Below are positions 3,710 through 61,664 of a stretch of 64,000 nucleotides of DNA, in pieces. The notes under the pieces are model-generated. The model was not told the DNA's origin, did not search any database, and saw nothing but the letters and a program-made list of their open reading frames with translations. The DNA comes from Heliocidaris erythrogramma (Eukaryota > Echinodermata > Echinoidea > Camarodonta > Echinometridae), in contig CM046856.1 in the NCBI GenBank assembly GCA_025617745.1, positions 32,234,208 to 32,298,207 of the forward strand, given 5' to 3'. The translations under genes were made by a program, and so were the position numbers. Numbering within the stretch: the first letter of the stretch is position 1; each line of letters starts with the position of its first letter.

Positions 3710-3781
3710 TGCCCCGACCGGGATTCGAACCCGGGACCCTGGATTACATGACCAGTGCTCTACCAACTGAGCTATCCGGGC
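3710..3781 (-). tRNA. tRNA-Thr(TGT)-like gene, probably a SINE head
   Basis: The minus strand folds as a 72-nt tRNA. The acceptor arm has one mismatch, the D arm is GCTC/GAGC, the T arm CCGGG/CCCGG encloses TTCGAAT, and both internal pol III boxes are intact (TAGCTCAGTTGG and GGTTCGAATCC). The anticodon loop CATGTAA gives anticodon TGT, but base 33 is A instead of the near-invariant U, and pair 31:39 is T-T. It sits at the end of an inverted repeat with a second copy at 4343. I take it as tRNA-derived repeat DNA rather than a working tRNA gene. Confidence 0.6.
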
Positions 3782-4342: not shown

Positions 4343-4412
4343 GCCCGAGCTCAGTTGGTAGAGCAGTGGTCATGTAAGCCAGGGTTCCCGGGTTCGAATC
4401 CCGGTCGGGGCA
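4343..4412 (+). tRNA. Degraded tRNA-Thr-like copy
   Basis: This is the mirror partner of the unit at 3710-3781. The B box GGTTCGAATCC and T arm are intact and the anticodon loop CATGTAA is the same. Three bases are missing at the acceptor/D-arm junction (GCCCG joins AGCTC), and the D-arm/anticodon region differs slightly. It is unlikely to give a functional tRNA. Confidence 0.55.
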
Positions 4413-9122: not shown

Positions 9123-12100
9123 TATATCTATTCCTTTGTATTTAAGCCTCGTACTAATCGTTAGAATTTCATTAATAGTTGGTTCATTATTTTGGTTTTG
9201 TATGGATAAAAGAGCACTAAGTGAATCACTAAATATAACAACACCCGTGTAAATGTCCATATTTTCTACCCATTCGAGGGCTAGAAGAATAGCAATCAAT
9301 TCAGCCCTGTAAGACGAAGTGAAATTAGTCAATCTCTTCCCTCGATGTCTTGAAAAGTATTGTACATAAAAGGCAGATGAACTTACTCTTTTATCAGGTG
9401 ATTTGGATCCGTCAGTGTATATGTGCAATTGACTTATCCATTTGGTGTGTATTAATTCAAGGCTCTGTTGTTGTAATTGCATGGGATGGTCTGTTTTCTT
9501 TAATTGTAAGTTTAATTCAGTAGATATGATTGGTGGACAGAATAACCATGGGGGGGGGGGAACAGAAGGACTAAGTTTTTCGATAATTTCTTGTCCCATC
9601 TTACTCTGTAACCTGTATCCAAAAGGTTTACAAACACATTTGCCTTTTAGGTATTCAAATTGCCAGCATGGTTCTATATGACTTACCAGTGGGTGATTAA
9701 AATTTCTCTCAATACTTTGTCTGTACTTGCTAGATAACAATTGTCTTCTCAGGTCTAGAGGTAGTTCCCCCATTTCAACCTGTAAAGAACTCAAAGAGGT
9801 TAACGGGAGACACCCCGCACATATCATAAGAGCTTGATATTGCACAGATCTTTTTGGTAGTTTCAGCTGCACTATCATATGCTTGGCAACCGTAGTCCAG
9901 AAGAGATCTAATAAGTGCTCGATAAACAATTAGAAGGGATTTTGATGAACTTCCCCATTTTGTTCCTGTCAAACTACGTAATATGTTTAGTTTTCGTTTA
10001 CATCTTGTAGCTACATTTTCTATATGAGAGTGCCAGGTCAATTTGCTATCAAATAAAATTCCTAAAAAACGGTGAGACGGTTTATATGTTAAAATATTCC
10101 CTTCCAAGTTCAATACTGGTTGAGGAATGTTTGAACTTTTCGTGAATAATACAGGTACAGTTTTCTCATTTGAGAGTTTAAAACCCCAGTCTTTAAACCA
10201 AGAGGATAATCTATCCAAATAAGATTGGATTTTCAATCCAATTATATCAACATGTTTACTAGACGTCCATATTGCACAGTCGTCTGCATACATAGATATT
10301 GTTACGTCTGGGTCTGTTGGAATGTCCCTCATCGTCACATTATAGAGGAGGGGGCTCAAAACACTACCTTGAGGTAAACCGTTATGCATTTTGTATGTGC
10401 TTGATTCTGTATCTAAGATTCTTACTTGAAAAGTACGTTCTGTTAGGTATTCACGTAAATAATTGTACATCCTTCCTTGTATACCACAATGAAATAGTTT
10501 AAATAAAATTCCTTCGACCCACAGGCTATCGTAGGCCTTTTCAACATCCAAAAACACTACCAACGTATGCTCACAACAATTAATACTCTTTTGAATGTCA
10601 TTCTCCAGGAGAACAATATTGTCAGTGGAACTACGCCCTTTTCTAAACCCACTCAAGAAATTAGGCAATAAATTATTTTTTTCTATGTACCATTGTAATC
10701 TGTCATTGGTCATACGCTCAATAATTTTTGCAAAACATGACAGGAGAGATATCGGTCTGTAAGAAGTTCAATTTTTAGAATCCTTACCAGTTTTAAGAAT
10801 TGGAACCAATATGGAATGTTTTAGAGGACGTGGAATATTTCCAGTTTCCCATATTTCATTAATAATTTGTAACATAGTGTTTTTAGCTCTCTCGGGCATA
10901 TTTCCATAGACAATATATGGAATATTGTCCTTTCCTGGCACCGTGGTGCGTTTGGAGGTTTTAACAGCCTTTTCGAGTTCATACATCGAAAAATTTTGGT
11001 TAATCACATGGTCTCTTAAGAAAGGACAATTTTCCGTTCTTGTCAGGATTGTTTTAAGGGTTGCTTCTTTATTTCTCAGTCCCAAAGATTGGAAAAATTT
11101 ACCCAGGGCTTCTGTTTTCTCTTGGGTTGATATAATGTCCTGTCCGTTTTCAACCAATATAGACATATTTTTAGATTCCTTTGTTGATACTCCATTTAAG
11201 CGTTTTATACAAGCCCAAATTTTTGACTCCGGCATATACCTGTCAAGTCTTTTGCAAAAAGCCTGCCAGTATTCCCTTTCCGCTAGACGGAGGACTCGCT
11301 GAGCTTCCGCTTTCTTCTTCTTAAACTCATCTATTGCTTCAAAAGTGAATTCTCTTTTCAATTTGTTACTGAGTCTATTTCTTTCTTTTATTTTATGAGA
11401 ACATTCTTTGTTCCACCATGGAACTGGATTCCTTTCTATATTTCTTTTTTTTGGAATCACTTCCCTAATACATATTTTCAAGTATTTAATAAATGATTCA
11501 TAAGATTTACTAACATCTGCCTCTGTAAGGATTGAACTTTCATCCAGGATATCATTGCATTTATCTGCGAACTTGGCCCAATTAAAATTCTTAAAAGAAA
11601 ATCGTTCCTCATCTATATTTTTCACATTAATATCTTTATATGGTGCGTCTTTCTTTCCTGGTTGAATTTCAATATGTATGGGAGAATGATCACTACCAAA
11701 GGAATTATTCAAAACTTTCCATGAAGCCCTACCTGCCAAGATTGGTGAGGAGATAGTTAATTCTAAATGTGAAAGTTTACCAGAGTAAGGGTCCATCATT
11801 GTACCTGTTTTATCATTTAACACAACCAGATTATATTTATTTAAAAATTGTTCCACTGCGTGGCCATTACTGTCCACTTTCTCGCTTCCCCACAATGGAC
11901 TATGTGCATTAAAGTCCCCTGTGATTATTATCTTATCTCTTTCATTTACAAACTTTAATAATTCTTTTAAAATAAATTCATTTAATTTCTTACATGGATT
12001 GTCAAAATTGATTATAGATATTTTTTCGTTGCCTGCATAAACATTAACTTGTTGTACTTCTAAACTTGGATTGTCAAAAGGGCCTTCATAAGGTACCCCT

Positions 12101-12348
12101 TGATGTATATAAATGGCACATCCCCCTCTGCGTTGTCCATCTCTATTTTTTGAGACACAAGTATATTCGGGGATTATAAAAGAACTATAGTCATGAAACC
12201 AAGTTTCCTGGATACATAGTAAATCATATTTTTCAATTTGATTCAGGTGATAAGAAAGCTCTTGGCCGTGCCCTAATAGCCCCTGGGCGTTCCATTGGAG
12301 TATGGAAAAAAGGGTCATTATGGCAAGGTTAGAGGCCATCTTCTTGTA

Positions 12349-28182: not shown

Positions 28183-28448
28183 TAATAATAATAATAGTAC
28201 AAACAGACGATTGGTACTACAAAACTTAAAGATAACATTTAACAAATTCATAGTGACGAAGCTTTTCGATCTGCACTCATCGGGTCACAACGCAGGAATG
28301 AGAGAATACAAGAAAATACAAAAGTCAAGGAAGTGGGACGCTGTACACACACTTCCTTGACTTTTGTATTTTCTTGTATTCTCTCATTCCTGCGTTGTGA
28401 CCCGATGAGTGTAGGTCGAAAAGCTTCGTCACTATGAATTTGTTAAAT

Positions 28449-28759: not shown

Positions 28760-31700
28760 ATGAAAATGAAGCGGTTGACAATTCTGCGAAGTTATCTGTT
28801 GAGGTTACACCTGCAAATGTTGGGGATATTCCACTGGGCACCAATTCACTGGCGACTCAAGTGTCTCATGTGTACAGATAGGATGAAGACAAGTACAGCA
28901 GGCAACGAAGGAGCTCAGTTACGTCGTCAAGGTAATCATACTCTATTCGTCATATTTTGATTTAGAAAGCTAGAAATGTTAGAAAATATATGCATGACAG
29001 GAACAAGAGGCAAATTTATTGAGGAGAAATCACAAAAAGTAGTAGGGAAATTCCAAGATATTTTTTAAAATACAAATTTGCATGAAAACTATGATAATAT
29101 ATGATAATGTAATGTAACTCAAAACAAAATTCAATTCATATCTCCATTTTCTTTCTTTTTAAAACTGTAGATGAAAATAGAATCATTTTATTCTTGAGGT
29201 TTTAAGCTTTCTGGTGATATATACATGTACTATATATGAAGAAAATGAATGAATTTCTACTTTAAACACATTAATGGAATACCTACCTATGTAATACGTA
29301 CGAATTACAGAATTTTTACATTATTATAAAATTAAGTGAATCGTAGGAGGGAGTGTAGAAACCGAGCAAGAAAATTTCTATTCTTCCATTCTAGAGCTAT
29401 TCAGAGCTTAAAAAGCGTCTTATAGCCTTTAATCGTTATTTAGTTTTTTTCTCTCTTTTCTCTCGAAATTTCCGAATTTCCAGGGGAACACCCCCCCCCC
29501 CCCCCCATGATCACCACTCCTCTATTATCCGTAGAAGGATACATTAATTATATTCTTATGTAATTTTTCAAACAGATAAATACATGATGAAGGACAATGG
29601 AAACCATTTCAACGGCCCAAACGATGATGATTTCGCTGAGGATATGGACGAAAGCGCGGGTTTATTCGCTCCCACCAACACGACAAAGGAAAATTCTGAG
29701 TATTTGTGGGAAGATGAGGAATTTGGCGAGACTTGTGTCGTCTGTGAAAGTCTGCTATGGAATGGAGAAGGGGACGTCGTTCGTAACATCGAGGAGTGGG
29801 GTAAAGATTATAGTAACAATAACAATGATGACGGGGGTATCACAAGGTCAATAATCTATAACTTGAGTAGTATAAGGTCATAACAACCTAAAATTTTGAT
29901 ATAACAGTGGTCAAATCCTGAACGATAAAATCGTTGGGGTTCTGTCTATCAAACACGATGGACACTGTCCGCAAGGCTTCTTCTTAATTGACTTACATTA
30001 TTATCGTTGGGGACTGTCTTAAAGGCTGTTCAGCCCCGAATGATAACGATAACGATCAATTTATGATAAATCTTTCCCAAATCGCAAGTGTGGAAGATGA
30101 ATTGGAAATCATTGTTTATCAGACCTCGACGATTTATATTATTATGAGCTTCCGTCAACGATTTTACGGTCTCCTTTGGATCGCGCTGCGTGCGATTTTC
30201 TCAGGACAGACCTCAACGATAATATCTGTGAGCCAGTAAGTTTACTCCTTACTCCGTGTACTCCGGAGGAATTCATCGTGCTTAATTGATAGAACCGAAA
30301 GGATTCGTTCGTTCAGGTGTGACCACTTTATTGTTATTGTTGAGGTCTGCTTTGCCGAGCGATCCCAACGAAATAATAAGTCGTTGGGGGAGGCTCCTCA
30401 GCATTTGCCGGGCGTCTGACCTACGATATCCCTTTCATTTCCACATAAACAACAAATAACGATTTTAATAGGAAGTTTATCATTATCGTTTCGTTCAGAT
30501 CGGCTTGTTCCGAAAGGATGGGTAGCGTCACGTCGCGTTGACGCGAACTCCATCATTCGTCCAAAGCCCCCCCCCCCCCGGGTTTGCCGAAAGTGTGCGT
30601 TGGGAGTGTCGGGTCGCGTCTGGTCGCGTCGCGTTGACTGGAACGCCACCATTCGTCCAAAGCTCCCGCCCCCGGTTTTGGCGAAAGGGTGCGTTTGGAC
30701 CTTTTGTTATATAATATTAATGACAGTGGCGGATTTATGGATCCCGACCCGTGCCCCCCACCCAACCCTCCTCTTTGAAAGAAAAGTATGCATTGTGCCC
30801 CCTTTTAGAACTGATAACCTTTATTTTTTTGTTTTTTGTAGCCCGTCAGAGAATTATGCGAGGAAAAGTGTAAAGTTGACAGCCCTGCATTTCTCTGCCC
30901 CCTTACAAAATCCTGGATCCGCTTCTGATTAATGATCATAATCAGAGGCGGATCCAGAGAGGGGAGGGGGCAGTCGAATCGGCCGCTTCCCTTGAAACCC
31001 CAACTGGCATCCCTTTAAGTACACAATTAAAAAAAAATTGTCTCCTTAATTGTGTAATTTTCCGGCTCGATCTGTGCCCCCTCTTTTACAAAATCCTGGA
31101 CCCACCCCTGATAATAATAATAATAATAATGATAACAATATTTAGAACAAGTCAACACACCCTTTCGGAAAAACGGGGGGGGGGGGGGGGGGGGGGGGGC
31201 TTCCAGTCAACGCGGCGCGACGCTACCCAACCTTTCGGAACAAGCCGTTCAGGTCTGACCATCCGTTCACGATCGAAAGATATATAAGTAAATTTCAGTC
31301 TCCCCAAGTGGGGGTGGGGGCGGGGCAGGATCGATATCCACAATGTGTTCTTACCAGGTAGGATGAAAGGAAGCCACATACTCTTTCAAGTAACACTTAA
31401 AGTTAGGGTTTTATAAATATGAACCAAGTGAAGTATATACTTTGTACATATTTTTGATTACATGCCCTCATAATTATCATATTCTGATGAGCTATTTATG
31501 ATCGAACTTTACTATCAATCTTATTATCCCTTAGTGCCTAGTCCATTCCGCAGAGCCGTTGGAACTATATGTTCCTTGGTCTTCGTGATAATCTTAACAG
31601 TGGGCACGTGCTACAACACTGTGCTGTACTTCCGAAACCTTTTTGGTCGCCAAGACGAGGTGATGCATCTGACTTCCTTCATGTCCTTCTCAATCAGCTT

Positions 31701-34382
31701 GAGTTCTGTTGCGTTGATCTGCATCTACGCCAAGATCCGGTACTACCTGACAGGGTATGGCAGTTACCTGGACACACATTACGGTCCAAGGCATTGGGGC
31801 TGGTGCGGGGTGTTTCATCAAGATTACATGGTAAGACTACTATTTCTGGCTATGAATCTGAGAACAACTACAGTATTACATGCCACAACAATTTTCTATT
31901 CGGCAACAACTTTTTCAGAGGACGAAACAAATTATCGCGTCCAATTAACTCATCTTAACGAGAACTAATTCGAGGACGTTCATCTAGCTGTATAATGAAT
32001 ACCCATCAACGATGTTTACTCACATACGATACTTCTATTTCCACCCTATTGACTACCCTCGAAAGCCATCAATTTTCTAGAATAGAACTTTTAACTCCCT
32101 GGTGAATCCTAACTCGGGATCAACTACCTTCAATAATCATCAGACTATTAAGGACAATACAATGAATCTAGATAAGATAGATACAAATTTTCATGATGCC
32201 GATTAATAATAATAATAATAATACCACTGTTCTTGTATAGTGCATATCACATTATAATATAACGTCCCTATATATATGTATATATATATATATAATGATC
32301 TTACCACTGAATCTGTCACTATTCGGCTCCAGACCCGTCGTCTACAATACCTATGCGGAGCTAATGGGTTTCGTCTTCCAAGCATAGCCTTTCACATATC
32401 GTGTATTTTCTGGCCAGTTCTCAACATGGTTTTCGAGATCGTTTACTTTAACAACCTGTGCCAAATCCAGCCCATCATGAACACGATGTTCACCGTGATA
32501 GAGGTTTGAATTGTTTTTTGTTGTTGTTTCTTTCTAGGGAATGGGGGATCTTGGGTCAAGTTTTCATTTTCGTGACACATTTCAGTCACATTTAATAAAT
32601 CGGTGAAGACGGAATGAAAAAGAAAATAGAAAAATAAAAGTCCCTACTGTAAGTTGGTTATGACAGTACTTGATCAGACGCCGAAAGAACATGCACTAGC
32701 AGAAGGTGACGTAATATGCAAACAGTCAATATTCAAACCCTATAAAGAGGTCAGCAGGGTAGAGGAGGGCATATGCCCCAACAGTCTCAGAATTAATGGT
32801 GCATAGCCTATGGAACATTATTTGCGATTAATGCGCTTGACCCAAACCATCTAGGAGAGAGATCGACACCCTTGAAAGTCACTGTACAGCTAAGTGTAAG
32901 GTTTATTTCACCTTTTTTCAAAATGTTGAATATGAACTGTGAAAAGCTACATTACTTTTCAAAAACAGTAATGATATAATATTAATATATTTTGTTTACC
33001 CAGTGTAGCCTAATCATTATTAAATACTGTTCTCCCTGAGGGAGAAGCATTACTCTTCCATCGAGTCTTATCTAAAATTGCACTTTGTCCAAATATCTCT
33101 GTAAGGAAAACTGATAAAAACAACTACTACATATTATAATTGCATATTTTACCGAGATAGAATTTGAAGGTTATGCAGAGGATGTGGGATTCTGGGACAG
33201 GCATGCTTTTCTAAAATGGGAGTAAAACTTTTCTTCCCCCTAGGTAATATCAGTCACAGCTGGGATGCTGTTGTTCGGAGTATTCTGCTACATTCTTTTC
33301 CTACTTCGTTGCTCTTTTGAGACCGAGTGCAACCTCCTGCTGGCCTTCTTCGTCGAGAACGAGGGCCATCTCGACCGATGTCGCATGCGGTTAGTCGAAA
33401 CCTATCGTGATTACAGGCTCTTCCGATCAGCGGTCAGCGCGTGGATCGCTTTCATTGTTGCCATCGGCATCCTCGGTAACACGGATAACTACCTAAATGT
33501 ATTGTATTAGCTCGATAAGATGGGGTTCTAATTCGTTCATTCGTTGCTTATTCGTAAAATATACTGATATTTAAAAAAAAATGTCAATAACATCATTAAA
33601 CTAAGGCACTTTTTTTTGGGGGGGGGGAATCATAAAGCCTTTTTCCAATGAGGTAGGCTCCATTAATTCTTTGGTAAGCCCCCAAAAGCTGGGTTCAGGG
33701 TTTTTACACTTTTATTTGGTAAATTGCTAGTTATTCACAAATCATTAAAGCATCTATAGTTTGTCAGGAGCTAAAATTGTGTTATTCCCTGTAAAAAGTT
33801 TTGGAGTGGATTTCGAGAGACTCTTTTTTCAATAAAACTTGGTTACATCCAAAAGAGGATTTCCTATTTTCTTCACCATTGAATGATTGATGTTTTAACT
33901 TATTTTTTGTATGATCATTGTCGCTGCTGAAACCCATTTATCAGTATGCACAAAGTAACATTTAAGGGACACGATCAACGTTTCTAACCCAGTGCCTTAT
34001 CTTACTTGCAGGCCTTACAATTCATCTTAGCTGGAATTACGATGTTTACAGCGGCAACGAGAAACTTGAGATAAGCGGAAAAGATCTCCTCTTGCTCAAT
34101 GTTCTCATCTTCTCGGAGAAGCTTATGATCCTTACTCTACCCGCCCTCGCAGTCGGCGGGATGGACCTGGGATACCTTTGGCGTCATTTCCACTTGGCGC
34201 TCTCGAGGAATCGTCGAAGCGAACAGGAGTACTTCTGGGAGCGCCTTGCCTATTACCTTCGCGATCTGAAAGAGAACGACAAGGCCACAGGCTTTACGAT
34301 GTTTCTTTCCGTGGTGTCCCTCTATACGGGACTCAGACTCGGCGCACAAAACTTAGATTATTCTCGCATCCCATCGCGTTAG
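28760..34382 (+). CDS. Seven-helix membrane protein, six exons, family uncertain
   Basis: Exons: 28760-28931 (possible acceptor TTTTGCAG at 28729, so more 5' sequence may exist), 29576-29836, 31535-31830, 32333-32503, 33244-33475, 34012-34382 (stop). Every donor is GT and every acceptor AG, and phases match across all five introns (1,1,0,0,1), giving about 500 residues. The first 145 residues are polar and acidic. Hydrophobic helices fall at about 152-177, 190-212, 258-282, 301-321, 362-384, 403-427 and 469-490. A basic/acidic loop of about 40 residues (FETECNLL...RLVETYRDYRLF) lies between helices 4 and 5. There is no signal peptide and no GPCR motif such as DRY or NPxxY. The shape is compatible with gustatory-receptor-like (GRL) proteins, which is inference only. 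Introns hold MITEs, a foldback and microsatellites. Confidence 0.7.
30724..30927. mobile_element. 204-bp hAT-type MITE with exact 8-bp duplication
   Basis: Starts CAGTGGCGGATTTATGG and ends AAATCCTGGATCCGCTTCTG. ATTAATGA flanks both sides (30716-30723 and 30928-30935), a perfect 8-bp target duplication. Interior GAGAATTATGCGAGG ties it to the elements at 1759 and 23320. Confidence 0.85.
30943..31110. mobile_element. 168-bp hAT-type MITE next to the previous one
   Basis: Starts CAGAGGCGGATCCAGAG and ends AAATCCTGGACCCACCCCTG. Flanks ATCATAAT and ATAATAAT agree at 7 of 8 positions. Only about 15 bp separates it from the MITE at 30724-30927. Confidence 0.7.
32200..32294. repeat. (AAT)n and (AT)n microsatellites in intron 3
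   Basis: AAT run at about 32205-32222 and TA run at 32269-32294, the latter about 40 bp before the exon 4 acceptor. Confidence 0.8.
32504..33243 (+). other. Intron 4 of the seven-helix gene
   Basis: Bounded by donor GAG|GTTTGA and acceptor CCCCCTAG|G. No transposon ends or ORFs of note. Confidence 0.65.
33476..34011 (+). other. Intron 5 of the seven-helix gene
   Basis: Donor CTCG|GTAACA and acceptor CTTACTTGCAG. Contains one G tract near 33620. Reading through the donor meets a stop (33508-33510), as expected for an intron. Confidence 0.65.
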
Positions 34383-39391: not shown

Positions 39392-41110
39392 TCATGGAAG
39401 TCGTAGTTGTGTCAGGAATGGAAGTCATGGTTGTGACATGAATGGAAGTCAAAGTTGTGACAGGAATGGAAGTCAAGGTTGTGACATGAATAGATGTTAT
39501 GGTTGCGACATATTGTTACGGGAAGGGAAGTCATGGTTGTGACAGGAATGGACGTCAAGTTTGTGACAGGAATGGAAGTCAAGGTCATGACAGGAATGGA
39601 CGTCAAGGTTATGACAGGAATGGGAGTCAAGGTTGTGACAGGAATGGAAGTCAAGGTTGTGACAGGAATGGAGGTCAAGGTTGTGACAGGAATGGAAGTC
39701 GCAGTTGTGGCAGGAATGGAAGTCATAGTTGTCACAGGAATGGAAGTCGTGGTAGTGACAGGAATGGAAGTCGTGTTAGTGACAGGTAGGTAAGTCATGG
39801 TTGTGACAGGTATGGAAGTCAAAGTTGTGATGTGAATGGAAGTCATGGTTGTGGTAGGAATGGAAGTCATGGTTGTGACAGGTATGGAAATCAAGTTTGT
39901 GACAGGAATGGAAATCAAGGTTGTGACAGGAATGGAAGTCATGGTTGTAACAGGAATGGAAGTCATGGTTGTGACAGGAATGGAAGCCATGGTTGTGACA
40001 GGAATGAATATCCAGATTGTGAAATGGATGGAAGTGAAGGTTGTGACGGAAGTGAAGGTTGTAACAGGAAAAGATGTCATTTGTTTTCTTGTACAAGGAA
40101 CTTTATTCATATATCAACAAATATTTACAAAATATGTACATGGCCAACATAAATCATTAATAACATTAAAATCAAAGATAATGAAGTACTTGATCAATTG
40201 CCTTTAAATCACGGTGTTTTAAAATAAATTTACAGCTCAAATTTTGACGTAATTCCAACTTAAAATTTATCCACAAGGCTTTCGCCGATTCATTAGCCCC
40301 TGTTTTTTCCCCATAAATTCTTAACATTCTTTATATATAACATATTGTGCAAATTTATAATGAGATTAATCATGAAATTATGTTCATCTGCTATATTAAA
40401 TCCAGTTATGGTTCAATAATTTTCCACAAGATCTTTACTCCCTTGAATTCAAATAACATGTGAATTGTTGTCTCTTGATATCTACATATATTACATTGAT
40501 TATCACTTGAAATGTGAAATAATGTGAATAAATTGTATTTTGATGGTAAAATCCTGTGAAGAAGCTTAAAATTAAACTGCTTAATTTTGTTTATCTTTTA
40601 TATAGTTAAATTTGAAGATCATAACTTGAACCCATAAAATGTCATCTTGTAAATTTGAAATAATATATCCAAAAATTAAAATTATATGGTTCTGTCTGTG
40701 TCAACTCAATGAATAAATTATTATCATGTTTGGCTTTCATAGTAGAAATTTCGAACAAATCCTCTTGGTTGTACTCAGTATACTGTCTATCTTTTTATTT
40801 TATTTATTTAACCAAATTATCGGGAATGCTTTTTAAAATTTTGATAGTTCAAAATGACACTAATAAATTTGTTGATTCAAAATCATTTAAAATATCAACT
40901 TCCTTCCAGCGTTGGTTGCGCCAGGAATGGAAGTCCAGGTTGTGACATGAATGGAATTAAGTCAAGGTTGTGACAGGAACGGAATTAAGTCATGGTTGTT
41001 ACAGGCATGAATTAAGTCATGGTTGTGACAGGAATGGAATGAAGTCAAGGTTGTGACAGGAATGGAAGTCGCAGTTGTGAAAATAATGAAAGTCGTGGTT
41101 GCAGCGGGAA
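39392..41110. repeat. 24-bp minisatellite
   Basis: About 28 units of AAGGTTGTGACAGGAATGGAAGTC fill 39392-40075, and a shorter, more diverged block fills about 40918-41110. The unit is a multiple of three with few stops, so several frames stay open (one minus frame reads repeated TSIPVTTM). I treat these ORFs as by-products of the repeat. The array is split by a LINE fragment. Confidence 0.9.
40076..40910 (-). pseudogene. L1/Tx1-like LINE 3' end inside the minisatellite
   Basis: The minus strand translates, with stops and shifts, to KILKSIPDNLVK..., then KIKQFNFKLLHRILPSK and DNQCNICRYQETTIHMLF followed by KILWKII. This is the C-terminal region of L1/Tx1-type reverse transcriptases (a CxxC...H block whose last Cys has become Phe). 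RT and endonuclease are missing. It interrupts the 24-bp array; a target duplication was not found. Confidence 0.65.
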
Positions 41111-45768: not shown

Positions 45769-46850
45769 CTACAAAGAAGACACAGCGGCCTTCAAGGTGG
45801 CTGACGCAAACAAAGCTTCACCTGCGGGAACATCCCTAAGGTAGCAAGAAATGAAGGAATTGGACGAACGCCAATAAGCAGCCTTCAAAATATCAACAAG
45901 CGCCACACCTTGAAACAGAGCCCAAGAAGTACTGACACTACGAGTATCATGAGCACGAGGCTTACTGTCGGATAAAAGAGCCTCTGTGCCAGCGGCCCTA
46001 ATAGCTTCAACGATCCATCTAGAGATGGAATCAAGAGAGGCAGGAGAAAAAGGCTCTCTAGTGATCAGGAACAACTGATCATCCTTACGATAAGACTTAG
46101 TCTTATCACCATTTGAGAGCCCTTACAGGACACCAAACTTTGTCCTCACGCACCGAAGAAAAGTCAGAAAGCGGACAAAGAAAAATCTCAACAGGGCCAG
46201 AGGCAGCTGTCTGATTCTTGGCAACAAAAGAAGCCCTAAGAATCAATCTAACGCCTTTTCTCTCCCAGCGAACATGACCAGGAGTAAGACAGAGAGCATG
46301 AAGAGTACTGCGCCTCTGCCCAGAGGCAATAGCTACCAAAAAGAGCGTCTTAACCGTAAGATGATGAAGCGAAGCTTCACCTAACGGTTCGAAAGGAGGT
46401 TTCGCCAAGGCCTCCAGGACCTTAGGCAGACTCCAAGACGGCACTAACTTAGAAAAAGAAGGTCGTTTCAGAAAGAACGAACGAATCAAACCACTTAGTA
46501 GCGGGGAATTGGAAATCCCCGAACCATCTGAGAAACCCGAATGAATGGCCCCGATCGCCGAACGGTAGCCTCGGATAGTAGAGATAGATCTCCCTTTGTC
46601 AAATAACGAGATTAAGAAATCCGCAATTGAACCAATAGGAGCCTTAGAAGGGGTTTGATTTCTCTCTTTGCACCAAAGGAAAAAGACCGAGAGACGGGAA
46701 TTGTAAATTTCCCTAGTAGAAACCCTATGACTGGACATTAAAAAGTCCGCGGCTCTATCAGAGAGACCCGACTGTCTTGCAGATTCCCTGACAGGGGCCA
46801 AGCAGTCAAATGAAGAGACTCCGGACTGTGGTGAAGAATCCCCGATAGGG
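45769..46850 (-). pseudogene. DIRS tyrosine recombinase
   Basis: The N-terminal core-binding part starts around SDRAADFLMSSHRVSTREIY and includes STIRGYRSAIGAIH. The catalytic part shows ASGQRRSTLHAL (first Arg), then a frameshift near 46107, and in the next frame AHDTRSVSTSWA (HxxR) and SNSFISCYLRDV (Tyr). This enzyme class joins circular DNA into the target without an integrase. The 5' part overlaps the RT/RNase H frame, a usual DIRS arrangement. The frameshift separates the active-site residues. Confidence 0.8.
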
Positions 46851-48360
46851 GCTGCAACACCAGATCCGCTCTTAACGGGAGAACGAACGGTTGAGCCCTT
46901 AGGAGGCTCATAAGTTCTGGAAACCAATTCCTCCGGGGCCAAAAGGGAGCTATTACAAGCACCCGCGCCCGATCTTCCCTGATTTTCCGCAAGACACGCG
47001 GAATCAGTTGGAAGGGAGGAAAGGCGAATCCCTGAAGGTTCTCCCAGCTGAGGGAGAAAGCATCGAGAGCCCATGCTCCCTGATCGCGAACACAGGAGCA
47101 ATACTTCGGCAGCTGGTGATTTAGCACCGACGCAAATAGATCCACTTCCAGTGGACCTAGGCGACTGCGAATGCGGCAAAATACCTCCGGATGGAGCGTC
47201 CGATGGAAGATACCTGCCCCGAGACAGAAAATCCGCAATGAGGTTTTCCCGACCGGGGATGAAAGAGGCCACGGGTGTGATCGCCATGCGACGACACCAC
47301 CTCCACAGCTGAGCTGCTAGGGCATTCAGGGCAACCGAACGAGTGCCTCCCTGCCGATTGATATATGCCGCCACAGTAACATTGTCCGTGAGAATCAGAA
47401 CCGAACGACTGAGAAGTCGACTTCTGAAATGGAGCAAGGTCAACAGAACTGCCATAAACTCCAGGACATTGATATGAGGAAGAGTCCCAAGATGAGACCA
47501 ATCCCCCGCAACCGTGCTGCCGTTGCAGTGTCCTCCCCACCCCAACCGAGAGGCGTCCGTCGAAACCGATATCGACGGGAGAGGGGCAGAGAAGGACCTG
47601 CCTCGCGCGAGAAACACCTCGCTCGTCCAACAAGAGAGAAGAGACTTGATCCTTACTGGTACTGGAATCCAGACCAAAAGAGAGTCTTTTCCCGGCCTGA
47701 AGAACCTGAGGAGATGTCTCTGAAAGGGTCTCATGAGGAGCCGGCAGTCCTCTAAAACATCGACTAGACTGGCTAGATAACCTAGAAACTGAAGCCAGTG
47801 TCTGGCCGAGACTCTTCTGGCCAGCAAGAGCTTGCGAGCCGCAGAGACAATGGTGAGAATCCTGTCTCGACTGGGCCGAGCCAACTGATTCCTTATGTCT
47901 AACACCGCCCCCAGAAAAACTGGGCTGCGAGTGGGAACTAACTCTGACTTTTCCCAATTTATTAGGAAACCTAAGTCTTGAGTAAGAGAGACGAGCAAAC
48001 GAGTCTCGTCCAACAAACGATCGCGCGACTCCGCAAGGAGAAACCAATCGTCCAGGTAACAAAACAACCGCAGGCCGCGACGCCTCAGAGAGGCCGCTAG
48101 CACCGCTACAACTTTAGTAAAAACCCGAGGGGCCGGGCGCAGCCCGAAGGGAAGAGCACGAAAACGATAAGTCTCCGAGAAGAAGGAGAACCCCAGAAGA
48201 TCGCGGGATGCGCGATGAATGGGAATGTGAAAGTACGCGTCCTTGAGATCTATCGAGACCGCGTAGTTTTCCCTTTTGATCAACGGAGCGTCCATAATTG
48301 TTAGCTCGAGCATTCCCATTAGCTGGCAATGTAGACAGCCCAGGAAGTACTCGTTCCCCC
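46738..48360 (-). pseudogene. DIRS reverse transcriptase / RNase H
   Basis: RT motifs: VSIDLKDAYFHIPI, FRALPFGLRPAPRVFTK and the catalytic FCYLDDW (YLDD). RNase H shows VSTDASRLGWGG, INVLEFMAV, LILTDNVTVAAYI and FIPGRENLIADFLSR. Near 47195 a one-base shift moves the reading to HPEVFCRIRSRLGPLEVDLFAS and on to a stop at 46738. The normal RT N-terminus (K-DG-x-RP-x-LD-x-R-x-LN block) is absent and a TAG lies just upstream of 48360, consistent with an internal deletion. Confidence 0.8.
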
Positions 48361-48475
48361 ATATGGCGTTTGCCGGGGGCTAGGGTTTGAGAACCCAGAC
48401 CAACATGGACTAAGCCCGTGGGTTGCCCTGCAGTAGTGGGGCGCGTCTCCCCTAACGGATCAGAGCGAGTGAACG

Positions 48476-49229: not shown

Positions 49230-50918
49230 CTCGTCGGGGGCAAGCAAGAAAGAGGAAGATGGCCGTAGCGTATTGACGCGCGTGAGTGGCGAAGGGGACA
49301 ATAGGATTACGGGGGGTGCGCACAATATTGTGACTCATGTGTGATAAATTCTCGAAGGGGTCCCGTAGTCAAGACTACAGGCATAATAGGTAGGTATATA
49401 TGATTTATTGCAGTAAATATGAAATTCGCCCTCTTTGAAGTATGGGAGAATCGTAGAGGTCAATTGCATTTCGCTCAGTTTTTCAGATGATTCACAGAGG
49501 AGGTCAAAGACAAGACGATGATGTTCACTTCGCTAATGCTTGCAAGAATGGAGTCGATGTGCACCAGGTAATGTTTTCGAACCTCTTCAAGATGGTTAAA
49601 CACATATTGTCGGACGAACCTGATGCAAATTTGAGCACATTCTCCAGCTCGAGTGCCCTTGATTCGGTGGTGATGCATTCTAGTATTTGTTGCAAGTCTT
49701 CTCCATCAAGGGTCGACACGTAGAACCCTGCGCAATGTTCCTGGGCAAGCTTGTGATAGAACTCTACGAAAACCGTCTCTGATTCGTCCCACTCGCTGGT
49801 TTCTTCCACCACCGTTTGCTTCGACATCAGCCCGATCTCAACAGATATATCCAGCTCGTCATGGCAGTCGGAAAATTCCTCCTCCTCAAATAGAAGCTTG
49901 TTGCTGTCACTGAATAAGCTATTCAGGGCAAATTTTCTGATACGAGACACGACTGATTTGATTAACCCTTTCTTGGGCTTACTTACCAGGCTCTTAGGGC
50001 CGAGAGATGCTTTTGATCGAGCATGCTCAAGGAGGTATTTCCTCACCCTGTTGAACAATGCCGTCAGTGATTTAGCGTAGGAATTCGCCTTGCCAGAGAA
50101 CACAAAATGCCATACAGAAAAAACGGAATATATTAATCAGGGATCCAATGGAAGCTTTACTCTGTAGATAGTCCTTCAGACCCCTAGCATCTGCCTCCTT
50201 ACTGCCGAAGAATCGATCAATATAATCACTAGAATCCTCTGGTGCGAATCCCTCAATATCCATCTTTGCGTACACGAGCGAAAGATCATCGACTTCGAAA
50301 TCTTCTTTCCTATGACGACACGTCACAAGAACTCGACATTTCTGAAAGCGGTGATACAAAAGAAGCTCCTCCAGACTGCTCTTCGGTCTATCAGACGTTA
50401 TTGACCCACTGAACTCATCGTAACCATCAAGAAGAATAACACAGTCGTCTTCGTTTTCATCGATGAACTTCTCTATTTCGTCAGGAGTGACACCCTCTAT
50501 TTTTCCGAGAAGATGTCTCACGATAGCCTCTCCAAGCGACGTACCTTTATCACTCCTTCTGAACTTCAGAGCAAACACCAGTGGTACACCCTTCAGCGGA
50601 AAGTCATCAGCTTCGGTTGCCTAGCCGTTGGCGATCTTTGTCACGGAAGTTGTCTTTCCGTGTCCCGCTCCACCGATCATAAGGATGCGGCTGGGAAGAG
50701 AGCCATCATTCTTGGTCCTGAAGATATCATTGATAGAACCAGGAAGCGGCAATTTCTTTACATCACCACCTTTCTGTCGCCTCTCCGCTACTAATAGGCT
50801 GATTCTCGTGTGGAGATCGTTGCATTCAGCGTAGTTAAGCCTCTCGCATGTTTTGAGTGCAATTTTACATGTCTTCTTGTAATGACCGATAACTTTGTGG
50901 TGAATGATTTAGGCGAAT

Positions 50919-51395
50919 CTAATACAAAAGACAAGACAGCAATGCACATTAAACTCAATTAAACCATTAGTCATTGCAACAATCATTTTATTAAAAAGAA
51001 ACATTAACCCTACCAAAAGGCGGTGATCGGGGGGGGGGGGGCTGTAGGGGAACACTTCACCCCCCCCCCCCCCCCGGAAATGCTGAAGACCTAATAGAAA
51101 TGTATAGTAAAGTATTCTAATCCCCTCCTCCCCCCTCCCTCCCGGCCGTGACTAGAAATCGCCACGCTTGACCCTATCTCATTATGATTTTAACATTTTT
51201 TTCTATGTTCTCATGGTGTCGTATACTATACAGTACAATGTAAAATTACTGTACAATTTATGAATTTGTTCCTTTGGTATGTAATCAATATCCTTTTATA
51301 ATTCATTGTTTAGCACCCTTCTGCAGCGTCTCTTACAGAGTGATTTTCCTCTCAAAGTAATGGAAAATTTGTGTCAGTTTATGATAGCTACCTAC
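50919..51395 (-). other. Intron between Death and NACHT exons
   Basis: Contains a G tract (51030-51041) and a C tract (51061-51075) 20 bp apart, which could pair as a hairpin, then ordinary AT-rich DNA. Confidence 0.5.
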
Positions 51396-51768
51396 CCTTT
51401 CCACTTAGATCATCGAAAGTGGGGCTGATACTCCCCAGCATCTCCGTTAAAGCCTCCAGGTTGGATTCGCTTGGGGGCAGTTTGATCCTCCATTTTTGAA
51501 GCATAACATGGACGATCTCCTTCGTATCATCTCGGTATTGTTTCTTGATGTTGTGTACTTCGGTCAAACTAAAGCCAAGCTTGACTCCGAGATCGCCGAG
51601 ATGATCGTAGGAGACTGTGCGAGAGATGTCCAAAATGTCTTTGTCGGTAAGGCTCCGCCCGGGATCAATTGGACTCCTGGGCTCCATTCTATGATTAAAA
51701 TGTGGATTCGAAAATTTTGATTTCTTTGACTGATGGCCTAAACACTTAAACAGGCTGATTCGCATCAT
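51396..51768 (-). CDS. Death-domain exon of the NLR locus
   Basis: An ATG at 51768 opens about 124 codons to a donor GAAAGG|GTAGGT at 51396. After a basic N-terminus, residues about 40-120 read LTDKDILDISRTV, LGDLGVKLGFSLTEVHNI, VHVMLQKWRIK and LEALTEMLGSI, the six-helix pattern of a Death-superfamily domain including the conserved W in helix 5. In sea-urchin-type NLRs such a domain precedes NACHT and passes the signal on by homotypic binding. This exon has no lesion, but the next one does, so the locus as a whole is probably dead. The true start may lie further upstream. Confidence 0.7.
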
Positions 51769-52552
51769 AATGATGCCCTATTATTAGAACAATCTAGACA
51801 ATACATTATCAAGCATAATTATGTAATGATAGATATCCTCCGCACTCACACCCACACCCACACGCAAAATCAGGCCTAACCCACCCCACCATACCCACGA
51901 CCATAGGCGTAGCCAGGGGGGAGGGCACAAAGGGGCCATGGCCCCCACCCTATTGCTCCGCCAAAACAAAGTCATCCACGGAATTTCGTGTGAGTGTGTA
52001 GATGTGCGTTTGTATCAGGTTTGGTTTGTATGTGTATAACATAGACGTATTATAGATTTATTATATTCCACATACTAAGAATCTTACTGTTAAAAAGGTA
52101 ATCACTTGATAAAACGTAGTTTTCCCCATATCAATCGACCCGAGACAGCCCCCCGGTTTCGCGGTCACTGCGAGAAGAAAAGTTCGTGACCTTGACGGAA
52201 TGGAATACTATGGTATACTGTTTCGCCAATGATCTCTTCAGTCCATTACAGAGTCAAAATGCGTTAGAAATATTTTGGGTGTGCGTGACCTCAATAGTCA
52301 AATTGAAAAGTGCGTGACCTCTACGAATTGTCAAAATGAAAAGTGCGTGACCTTTACGAATAGCTCTTTAGGCCTACTGAAATAATCGCGCGCTTATAAT
52401 AATAAAACAATAATTGTGCGCACCCAGTTATCGTCATGATTATCGATAATAGGCGTTGCATTATTCATATTTCTTGCGCGTGTCAGTTTATTGTGAAACT
52501 TTGATTGGATGCTAGGTCATGAATATGTACATAATTTGATAGTATACAAATA
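51769..52552. other. Intergenic DNA with a MITE end
   Basis: TAGGCGTAGCCAGGGGGG at about 51904 resembles hAT-type MITE ends. TGCGTGACCT recurs three times at about 52285-52352 (with GTCAAATTGAAAAG / GTCAAAATGAAAAG), a short tandem repeat. No exon recognised. Confidence 0.4.
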
Positions 52553-58410: not shown

Positions 58411-61344
58411 TTATTGTGGGGAATATTGCTTAATTAGGTGATTTTTTGCTGCTCGCTTGAAAGAGTACATTAAAGTCATGTTTTTTATTTCGGGAGGAAG
58501 GGAATTCCATACATCAGGGCCAGAATGCCTAATAGAATTATGTGCAAGAGCAGTCCTGGGGTTAAGTAAATGCACATTTTTTGATTGTCTGGTAGGATAT
58601 GCGTGAATTTGTGTGTTCGATTGAAATAATGTTGCAAATACTGGGGGTAAAAGGTTGGAGTTATACTTAAACATGAATAGAGCTTTTTGTAGGAAATTAA
58701 TATCATTGACCTTGAGGGACTTAAGACGAAAAAACAGAGGGTCAGTGTGAGAGCAAAAACTTGCCCCACTACACGCCCGGATGGCTTTTTTCTGGAGAAT
58801 TAATATGGGATTTGTATAACATTTATGAGTTGCCCAGATAATATTACAATATGATATGTATGGCAAGACAAGCGTATTATACAGCGTAAATAGTACAGAA
58901 GTAGGTAAAAAATATTTTAGCTTAGTTAACAGACCAACATTACGAGAGATAGGTAAAATTATGTGTTTTACATGATCATTCCATTTTAAATTTTCATTAA
59001 TATACACACCAAGAAATTTAGTCATCATTTTGTTTTCAAGAAGATTACCATCAATATATAAATCATGATTTTGCAAGTCAACTTTTCTTTTACCTCTGAA
59101 ATAAATATAGTTGGTTTTCCTTAAATTGAGTGACAAGATATTACTTTTAAACCATGTAGATAACTTCGGTAATTCATTATTCAAAATAGTAATTAAACGG
59201 TGTAAGTCAGAGTGTGAACAAAATACATTTGTATCATCAGCAAATAAAATATACTGTAACATAGGTGAAGCATTTGAAATATCATTAACATAAATTAGAA
59301 ATAATAAGGGGCCTAAAATTGAGCCTTGTGGGACTCCGCATGTTGTTGGTAACATATTCGAATGAGCGGATTCAAAGGAAACAAATTGTTCTCTGTGTGA
59401 TAAATAATTCTCAAACCAATGAAGTGCAGTACCCCGAATCCCGTAATGTTGTAACTTATATAGTAAAATTTTGTGATCAAGAGTATCAAATGCCTTGCTA
59501 AGATCCATAAATATACCAATTACATGTTCATGATTTGCCAAGGCATCTGATACTCTGTCAAATAACTGCATTAAGGCTAAATCGGTTGAATGATTCTTAC
59601 GGAAACCAAATTGATTAGGATTAAAAAAACTATTTTCAGACAAAAATCCATATAACCTATTATAGACAATCCTCTCAAGAATCTTTGAGAAACTTGACAA
59701 AATAGAAACAGGTCGATAATTACATATACAGGAAGGATCGTCTTTCTTATAAATTGGTATAACCTTTGCAATTTTAAAGGGGGTCGGGAAGACACCAGAG
59801 GAGAGTGAGAGATTAAAAATATGGATTAGAGGTGACAAAATATTATTTATAATCTGTTTCAATAAGTGAGTACTAATTTCATCATGACTAGAGGAGTGAC
59901 TACATTTGAGGGTGCGGACGATTCTTAATATTTCAATAAAGTCAGTGGGGATGAAGAATATGGATGTATCTATTGATTGTGATAAAAATTCTACAAAGTT
60001 ACAATTACTCTCATCAACTTTAGCAGCTTGGTTTGGACCTACATTAACAAAATATTCGTTAAACATGTTTGCTATTTCAGGGGGATTTTTGATAGAATTA
60101 CCATCTCTATTAAATACTTGGGAATTAATATGTGATTTGCTCTTATGAAGGATTTCGTTAATTATTTTCCATGTGGTTGAAATATTACCTTGAGCATTAT
60201 CTATTTTATTAGAAAAGTACATCCGTTTTGATAATCTTATTACACTTGTTAATTTATTTCGATATATTTTGTAATTACGCACATTTATAGGGTTTGGTTC
60301 AGAAAGGCTTATTTTATATAGAGTATTTCTTTTATTAATAGATTTCAGAATTCCTCTTGTAATCCACGGTTTGATAGGTTTATTGCGTTTCCCCCCAACT
60401 TTAACTTTAGGAATACTAATATTAAAATATGACTCAAATTTTGACCAAAATAAATGATATGCTCTTTCAGTGTCATTGCACATTAAAACATCTTCCCATT
60501 CTTCACTCTGTAAATGTTCGTTTAACCTATATATATTTTCTGGGGATAACTTCCGTGTATATTTCGTTTCTTTCTCTCTAAAAGGGGAAGGGATATTAAA
60601 CATTAAAAAAACAGGAATATGATCTGAAATTTCAGAATATAAAAGACCGGAATCAATTTTGTAAGTATCATCATTAAAAATTATATTATCTATGATAGTG
60701 GAAGATTGATTTACAATTCTTGTGGGTTTGTCTATAACAGGAAAACAAGCATTTGAATATATGATACTTTTAAATTGATTGACAGTATTATTATCTTGTT
60801 TAAGGTCTATATTAAAATCTCCCATTAAGCATATTAATTTGCCTTCTGGGTTCAGACTATTCAATAAATTATCAAAATCTTCTAAAAAGGTATCAACATT
60901 GTTGCTAGGTGGACGATAAATAACACATACAATTAAATTTTTCCCATTCTTTATATTAATCTCAATACATAATAATTCAAAGGAGCTATTAACAAGAGAA
61001 AATTCGTGTCTGACTTTGTACGATAAAAATTGGGATATATAAAAGGCAACACCACCACCACGACAGTTCTGTCTATCATTACGGATAAAATGGTAATTAT
61101 TAATATCATATACATTTGGAGATCTATTATTTAACCATGTTTCTGTGACGCCAATTATTGAAAATGAAAAAGAGAGGTTTACCAATAAGTCAGATATGTT
61201 ATCAAAATTCTTATTAAGACTACGGGCATTACAATGCAATAAACTGATTTTTTCAGAACAGTTTGAAAAAGTACGGTTGAACTCATCAGGCAGATAGTAT
61301 TGACATTTCACGTAGGGTTGAACATTACAATTTAGGTGAGACAT
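58411..61344 (-). CDS. LINE ORF2: APE endonuclease plus reverse transcriptase
   Basis: 977 codons with no stop. Endonuclease motifs: HCNARSL (about residue 37), TETWL (67-71), MGDFNID (174-180) and SDH (240-242), the Asn, Glu, Asp/Asn and His of the APE fold. RT motifs: NYRPVSILSSFSKILER, GFRKNHST, FMDLSKAFDTLDH, GVPQGSILGPLLF, FADD (about 700) and FLGVYIN. The C-terminus ends with WNSLPPEIKN and a basic tail. The enzyme nicks the target and copies its RNA there. All catalytic residues are present, so it could be active. Start choice follows the ATG after the spacer. Confidence 0.88.
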   Translation of the reverse strand: MSHLNCNVQPYVKCQYYLPDEFNRTFSNCSEKISLLHCNARSLNKNFDNISDLLVNLSFSFSIIGVTETWLNNRSPNVYDINNYHFIRNDRQNCRGGGVAFYISQFLSYKVRHEFSLVNSSFELLCIEINIKNGKNLIVCVIYRPPSNNVDTFLEDFDNLLNSLNPEGKLICLMGDFNIDLKQDNNTVNQFKSIIYSNACFPVIDKPTRIVNQSSTIIDNIIFNDDTYKIDSGLLYSEISDHIPVFLMFNIPSPFREKETKYTRKLSPENIYRLNEHLQSEEWEDVLMCNDTERAYHLFWSKFESYFNISIPKVKVGGKRNKPIKPWITRGILKSINKRNTLYKISLSEPNPINVRNYKIYRNKLTSVIRLSKRMYFSNKIDNAQGNISTTWKIINEILHKSKSHINSQVFNRDGNSIKNPPEIANMFNEYFVNVGPNQAAKVDESNCNFVEFLSQSIDTSIFFIPTDFIEILRIVRTLKCSHSSSHDEISTHLLKQIINNILSPLIHIFNLSLSSGVFPTPFKIAKVIPIYKKDDPSCICNYRPVSILSSFSKILERIVYNRLYGFLSENSFFNPNQFGFRKNHSTDLALMQLFDRVSDALANHEHVIGIFMDLSKAFDTLDHKILLYKLQHYGIRGTALHWFENYLSHREQFVSFESAHSNMLPTTCGVPQGSILGPLLFLIYVNDISNASPMLQYILFADDTNVFCSHSDLHRLITILNNELPKLSTWFKSNILSLNLRKTNYIYFRGKRKVDLQNHDLYIDGNLLENKMMTKFLGVYINENLKWNDHVKHIILPISRNVGLLTKLKYFLPTSVLFTLYNTLVLPYISYCNIIWATHKCYTNPILILQKKAIRACSGASFCSHTDPLFFRLKSLKVNDINFLQKALFMFKYNSNLLPPVFATLFQSNTQIHAYPTRQSKNVHLLNPRTALAHNSIRHSGPDVWNSLPPEIKNMTLMYSFKRAAKNHLIKQYSPQ

Positions 61345-61664
61345 GGTGTAGATTCAAATAAGTACATATAGCTACCCATGACTTGGCAGAAGAAAATGAG
61401 CTTATCTGGCAAGAATACGAAAAACAGTTGGGGTACAGGCAAAGGAGTATGTATACATTGCGTGGTACAGAATATATTGGAAAAGACTCGAAGAAAATGT
61501 GGCATAAGTGTACGTTGGAAAATAGCAAGTCTCTCGCCAATTACAAATTTAATTACAAAGTAATATAATCTATGCTTAAAGTGGCAAGAGAGAACTAAAG
61601 AAATAGAGGAAGAAACACGAAATAGAGAAATAGAGGAAGAAACAGAGTGTTACCGGAGAGTGTT

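Follow-up and report, generated by a model that had tools for sequence, protein, structure and literature searches.

The window, a 64-kb stretch of DNA corresponding to C4:32234208-32298207 in a genome of 1.06 Gb and 26 contigs, harbors a six-exon gene on the plus strand. It is a genuine animal gene and encodes a membrane protein with seven helices. Comparisons with the remaining genome showed that this gene belongs to an expanded family, how large this family is at least, and that its relatives are under coding constraint. With slightly better than even confidence, the window gene is considered a functional member of a large family of seven-helix plasma-membrane proteins that has expanded in tandem, most likely acting in the manner of insect OR/GR or GRL proteins.

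Structure of the six-exon gene

Splicing of the exons listed in Table 1 results in a protein of 488 residues. The preliminary description had proposed six exons with GT/AG sites at all junctions, phases 1,1,0,0,1 and a product of about 500 residues, and the gene model was found to agree with it. Translation could start at the Met at 28766; a true start within exon 2, giving a protein of 428 aa, is also possible. A near-perfect inverted repeat with TAA repeats on its flanks (28240-28442) is located just upstream of exon 1.

Table 1. Exons of the window gene, encoded features and sequences supporting them.
Feature	Position	Strand	Encoded part	Support
Exon 1	28760..28931	+	N-terminal, phase 1 donor	Frame matched by L065 ORF
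Exon 2	29576..29800	+	Acidic N-terminal stretch, phase 1 donor	Short C..C.SL.W likeness to L065 ORF
Exon 3	31535..31830	+	TM1-TM2 plus most of loop 2-3	Relatives' alignment
Exon 4	32333..32503	+	TM3	Relatives' alignment
Exon 5	33244..33475	+	TM4, loop 4-5, most of TM5	Relatives' alignment
Exon 6	34012..34382	+	Rest of TM5 through TM7, stop	Relatives' alignment

Three of the five junctions (3/4, 4/5 and 5/6) fall within unbroken exons of relatives and are thus spanned by their sequences, with close agreement at 5/6, fair agreement at 4/5 and weak agreement at 3/4, where the alignment contains gaps. The matched pieces of the multi-exon relative L049 likewise continue over these three junctions. 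Another multi-exon relative, L051, possesses a phase-0 intron within a few residues of window intron 5, and the window gene's inner introns are not common to the multi-exon relatives. At junction 2/3 (window intron 2), the phase-1 acceptor directly precedes TM1, and the same arrangement was observed in 10 of 11 relatives inspected.

Regarding exon 1, an ORF that lies upstream of the multi-exon relative L065 (C4:42.60 Mb), at a distance of 2.3 kb, aligns with it gap-free over 26 residues and possesses a candidate phase-1 donor. The alignment score of 57 was equaled or exceeded by none of 1000 shuffles. An alternative frame of exon 1, hydrophilic by eye, was rejected, as the other two frames scored 17 and 14. 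Together with the block-shuffle control of the protein match described below, this frame match rules out chance ORFs as an explanation. Furthermore, hydropathy analysis of the window protein yielded peaks for the seven helices that had been described, several of them overlapping and TM7 being the weakest (1.21).

An expanded family of relatives

Relatives were searched in the genome with a single query, namely the 428-residue form of the window protein. In total, 55 matches were obtained, 48 of them at E≤0.001. After dismissal of the seven matches with E above 0.001, merging resulted in at least 38 places including the window gene, with some broken or partial copies among them; two of the merged places probably hold two copies apiece. 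Most places (33 of 38) are clustered, namely on C5 (13 in one cluster), C2 (7), C14 (7), C7 (4) and C9 (2), and the remaining five, including the window gene, are located elsewhere. Clustering and large family size recall chemoreceptor families.

Intact relatives mostly encode TM1-TM7 in one open exon. This applies to all 26 relatives in the alignment, from which near-identical, broken or partial copies as well as multi-exon relatives were omitted. Residues 133-488 of the window protein, used as query, matched all 26 rows with 43.1-140 bits, compared to 27.7 bits for the best of 100 block shuffles retaining the hydropathy layout and 19.2 bits for the reversed sequence. Identity of the window protein to these relatives ranges from 15.6 to 25.0%. 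The 26 rows are not independent of each other and form about seven groups in the tree, in which the window gene is placed on a long end branch (2.09); its position is therefore unsure.

Seventeen pairs of C5/C14 relatives with dS values of 0.66-1.42 featured dN/dS ratios of 0.12-0.25. Ratios of younger pairs were noisy, reaching 2.13 at a dS of 0.013, and those of C2 pairs ranged from 0.22 to 1.31. As deduced from these ratios, coding constraint acts on the relatives, a statement that refers to them and not to the window copy itself.

Membrane orientation

On the basis of helix bounds placed by hand on the hydropathy profile, the loops of the window protein comprise 15, 48, 18, 38, 21 and 41 residues in order. 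Under the assumed orientation, the loops on the putative inner side (48, 38 and 41 residues) are longer than those on the outer side (15, 18 and 21 residues). A charged loop of 40 residues between helices 4 and 5 had been noted previously; measurement revealed 38 residues with 6 K+R and 7 D+E, and this loop is not basic. Among the 26 aligned relatives, the TM2-TM3 stretch is strongly basic, loop 4-5 is basic and loop 5-6 is acidic. Moreover, a sequon just after TM7 is present in all 26 rows as well as in 12 of 13 further relatives left out of the alignment, the exception being L049. This C-terminal sequon is also absent from the window protein, which carries a single sequon, N92, in its supposedly cytosolic N-terminal part. 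The latter region is net acidic (16 K+R versus 23 D+E), and some relatives carry sequons within supposed inner loops.

Loop lengths, combined with the loop charges and the post-TM7 sequon of the relatives, favor an orientation with the N-terminus inside and the C-terminus outside. Such an orientation is opposite to that of GPCRs and corresponds to that of insect OR/GR proteins. The cytosolic N-terminus considered in the preliminary description is favored by the loops and by the relatives' charges and sequons. The C-terminal sequon missing in the window protein and L049, the acidic window N-terminus holding the only sequon, the non-basic window loop 4-5 and the sequons within supposed inner loops of some relatives speak against it.

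Relation to GRL proteins and alternative explanations

According to a published account, GRL proteins have 350-500 aa, seven TM helices, an N-terminus inside the cell and longer inside loops, and their occurrence in echinoderms is mentioned (PMC7746228). In comparison with animal GRL proteins (7TMIC superfamily), the window protein is alike in length, with 488 aa or, counted from exon 2, 428 aa, in its seven hydropathy peaks (TM7 being weak and bounds set by hand), and in its longer inner loops given the assumed orientation; an inner N-terminus would be a further likeness. The TM7 motif (T/S)Yhhhhh(Q/K/E)(F/L/M), which is diagnostic but not definitive, occurs neither in the window protein nor in TM7 of any of the 26 relatives; a lenient search of the latter returned one match, located in TM2. 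Likewise, the window gene lacks the three phase-0 introns that GRs have at the 3' end, its last introns having phases 0, 0 and 1 and TM6-TM7 being encoded in one exon.

Searches against known families did not retrieve GRL or OR/GR members either. The window protein matched no Pfam family at E≤10. For 27 relatives, the Pfam scan returned eight weak, scattered and mutually inconsistent families below cut-off, none of them a GPCR family, and the NCBIfam scan of 26 relatives returned weak, scattered and likewise inconsistent names below cut-off. PDB matches of the window protein (E 9.2) and of two profiles of 26 or 27 rows (E 0.13-0.16) were rejected, as they covered short stretches of unrelated soluble proteins. 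A comparison with the GR profile had been proposed in the preliminary description and turned out negative: the genome scan with PF08395 (7tm_7) returned eight weak places, none above cut-off and none at the loci of the family. The same profile matched in none of 14 control genomes. The family resembles insect GRs in helix number, probable orientation and large tandem organization, but none of its loci is retrieved by their profile. Plant DUF3537 proteins (PF12056) have seven helices and an inner N-terminus according to PMC7746228, but the window protein had no match to them in Pfam. Prediction of the structure of exon 6 alone from one sequence reached a mean pLDDT of 56.8, which is too poor for fold comparison.

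Outside insects, many GRL members have only part of the TM7 motif or none of it, and they often lack sequence similarity as well (PMC7746228, PMC9998090). Since both are often lacking there, the missing motif and sequence match represent weak evidence. GRL membership of the window protein is a plausible hypothesis. The GRL fit suggested in the preliminary description is partly supported: length, helix number, longer inside loops and a non-GPCR layout hold and an inverted topology is favored, whereas TM7 motif, 3' phase-0 introns and a PF08395 match are absent.

The window protein probably serves as a sensory receptor or channel, with a cytosolic N-terminus and a C-terminus outside the cell, as suggested by loops, charges and sequons. 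In the manner of insect OR/GR or GRL proteins, subunits would assemble into a putative ligand-gated cation channel, which may serve chemical sensing or development. A more far-reaching reading can tentatively be put forward, namely that the family consists of ligand-gated 7TMIC channels, greatly expanded in a deuterostome and too diverged for sequence methods. A few multi-exon genes such as the window gene would then be accompanied by dozens of copies encoding all seven helices in a single exon, and the family would form an independent set of chemoreceptors on a par with insect GRs. Should the fold prove to be 7TMIC, a large receptor repertoire sharing the fold of insect taste receptors would exist in a deuterostome, hidden from sequence searches. 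Otherwise, the family would be an expanded orphan membrane family unnamed in the libraries searched. In either case, the family is open to direct tests by means of its intact single-exon relatives. No echinoderm description of the gene family was found in the literature searched, which for the most part comprised papers outside subscription.

Among the alternatives, a separate inverted seven-helix family that is non-homologous to insect OR/GR proteins and has a receptor, channel or other membrane function is possible but less likely. The lack of sequence links to 7tm_7, Pfam or PDB, even by 26- or 27-row profiles, and the absent TM7 motif and 3' phase-0 introns speak for it. Against it stand the likeness to GRLs in helix number, loop pattern and topology, and the fact that GRLs outside insects commonly lack motif and similarity. 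A highly diverged G-protein-coupled receptor is improbable. Seven helices would suit such a receptor, and large GPCR expansions are known in echinoderm genomes (PMC7042368), but Pfam, including 7tm_1, provided no GPCR identity for the window protein or 27 relatives, and the relatives' C-terminal sequon and the loop pattern favor the opposite orientation. These results are in line with the non-GPCR layout described at the outset. Finally, the long end branch and the missing C-terminal sequon might indicate a decayed or silent family member, yet this is highly improbable given that all six exons are open, splice sites and phases are intact, and exon 1 is still similar to that of L065.

Besides the seven-helix gene, the window contains an NLR-like gene or fragment on the minus strand (49528-51777) with a NACHT domain (50075-50620, E 1.9e-9) and a Death domain (51391-51777, E 4.4e-7). 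Reverse-transcriptase ORFs of retroelements were observed on the minus strand at 9778-12348, 46109-48379 and 58414-61353. Furthermore, a minus-strand tRNA-Thr is located at 3710-3781 and a weaker, plus-strand tRNA match at 4344-4410. In a tandem array of a 24-base unit (39394-40051), both strands retain long open frames.
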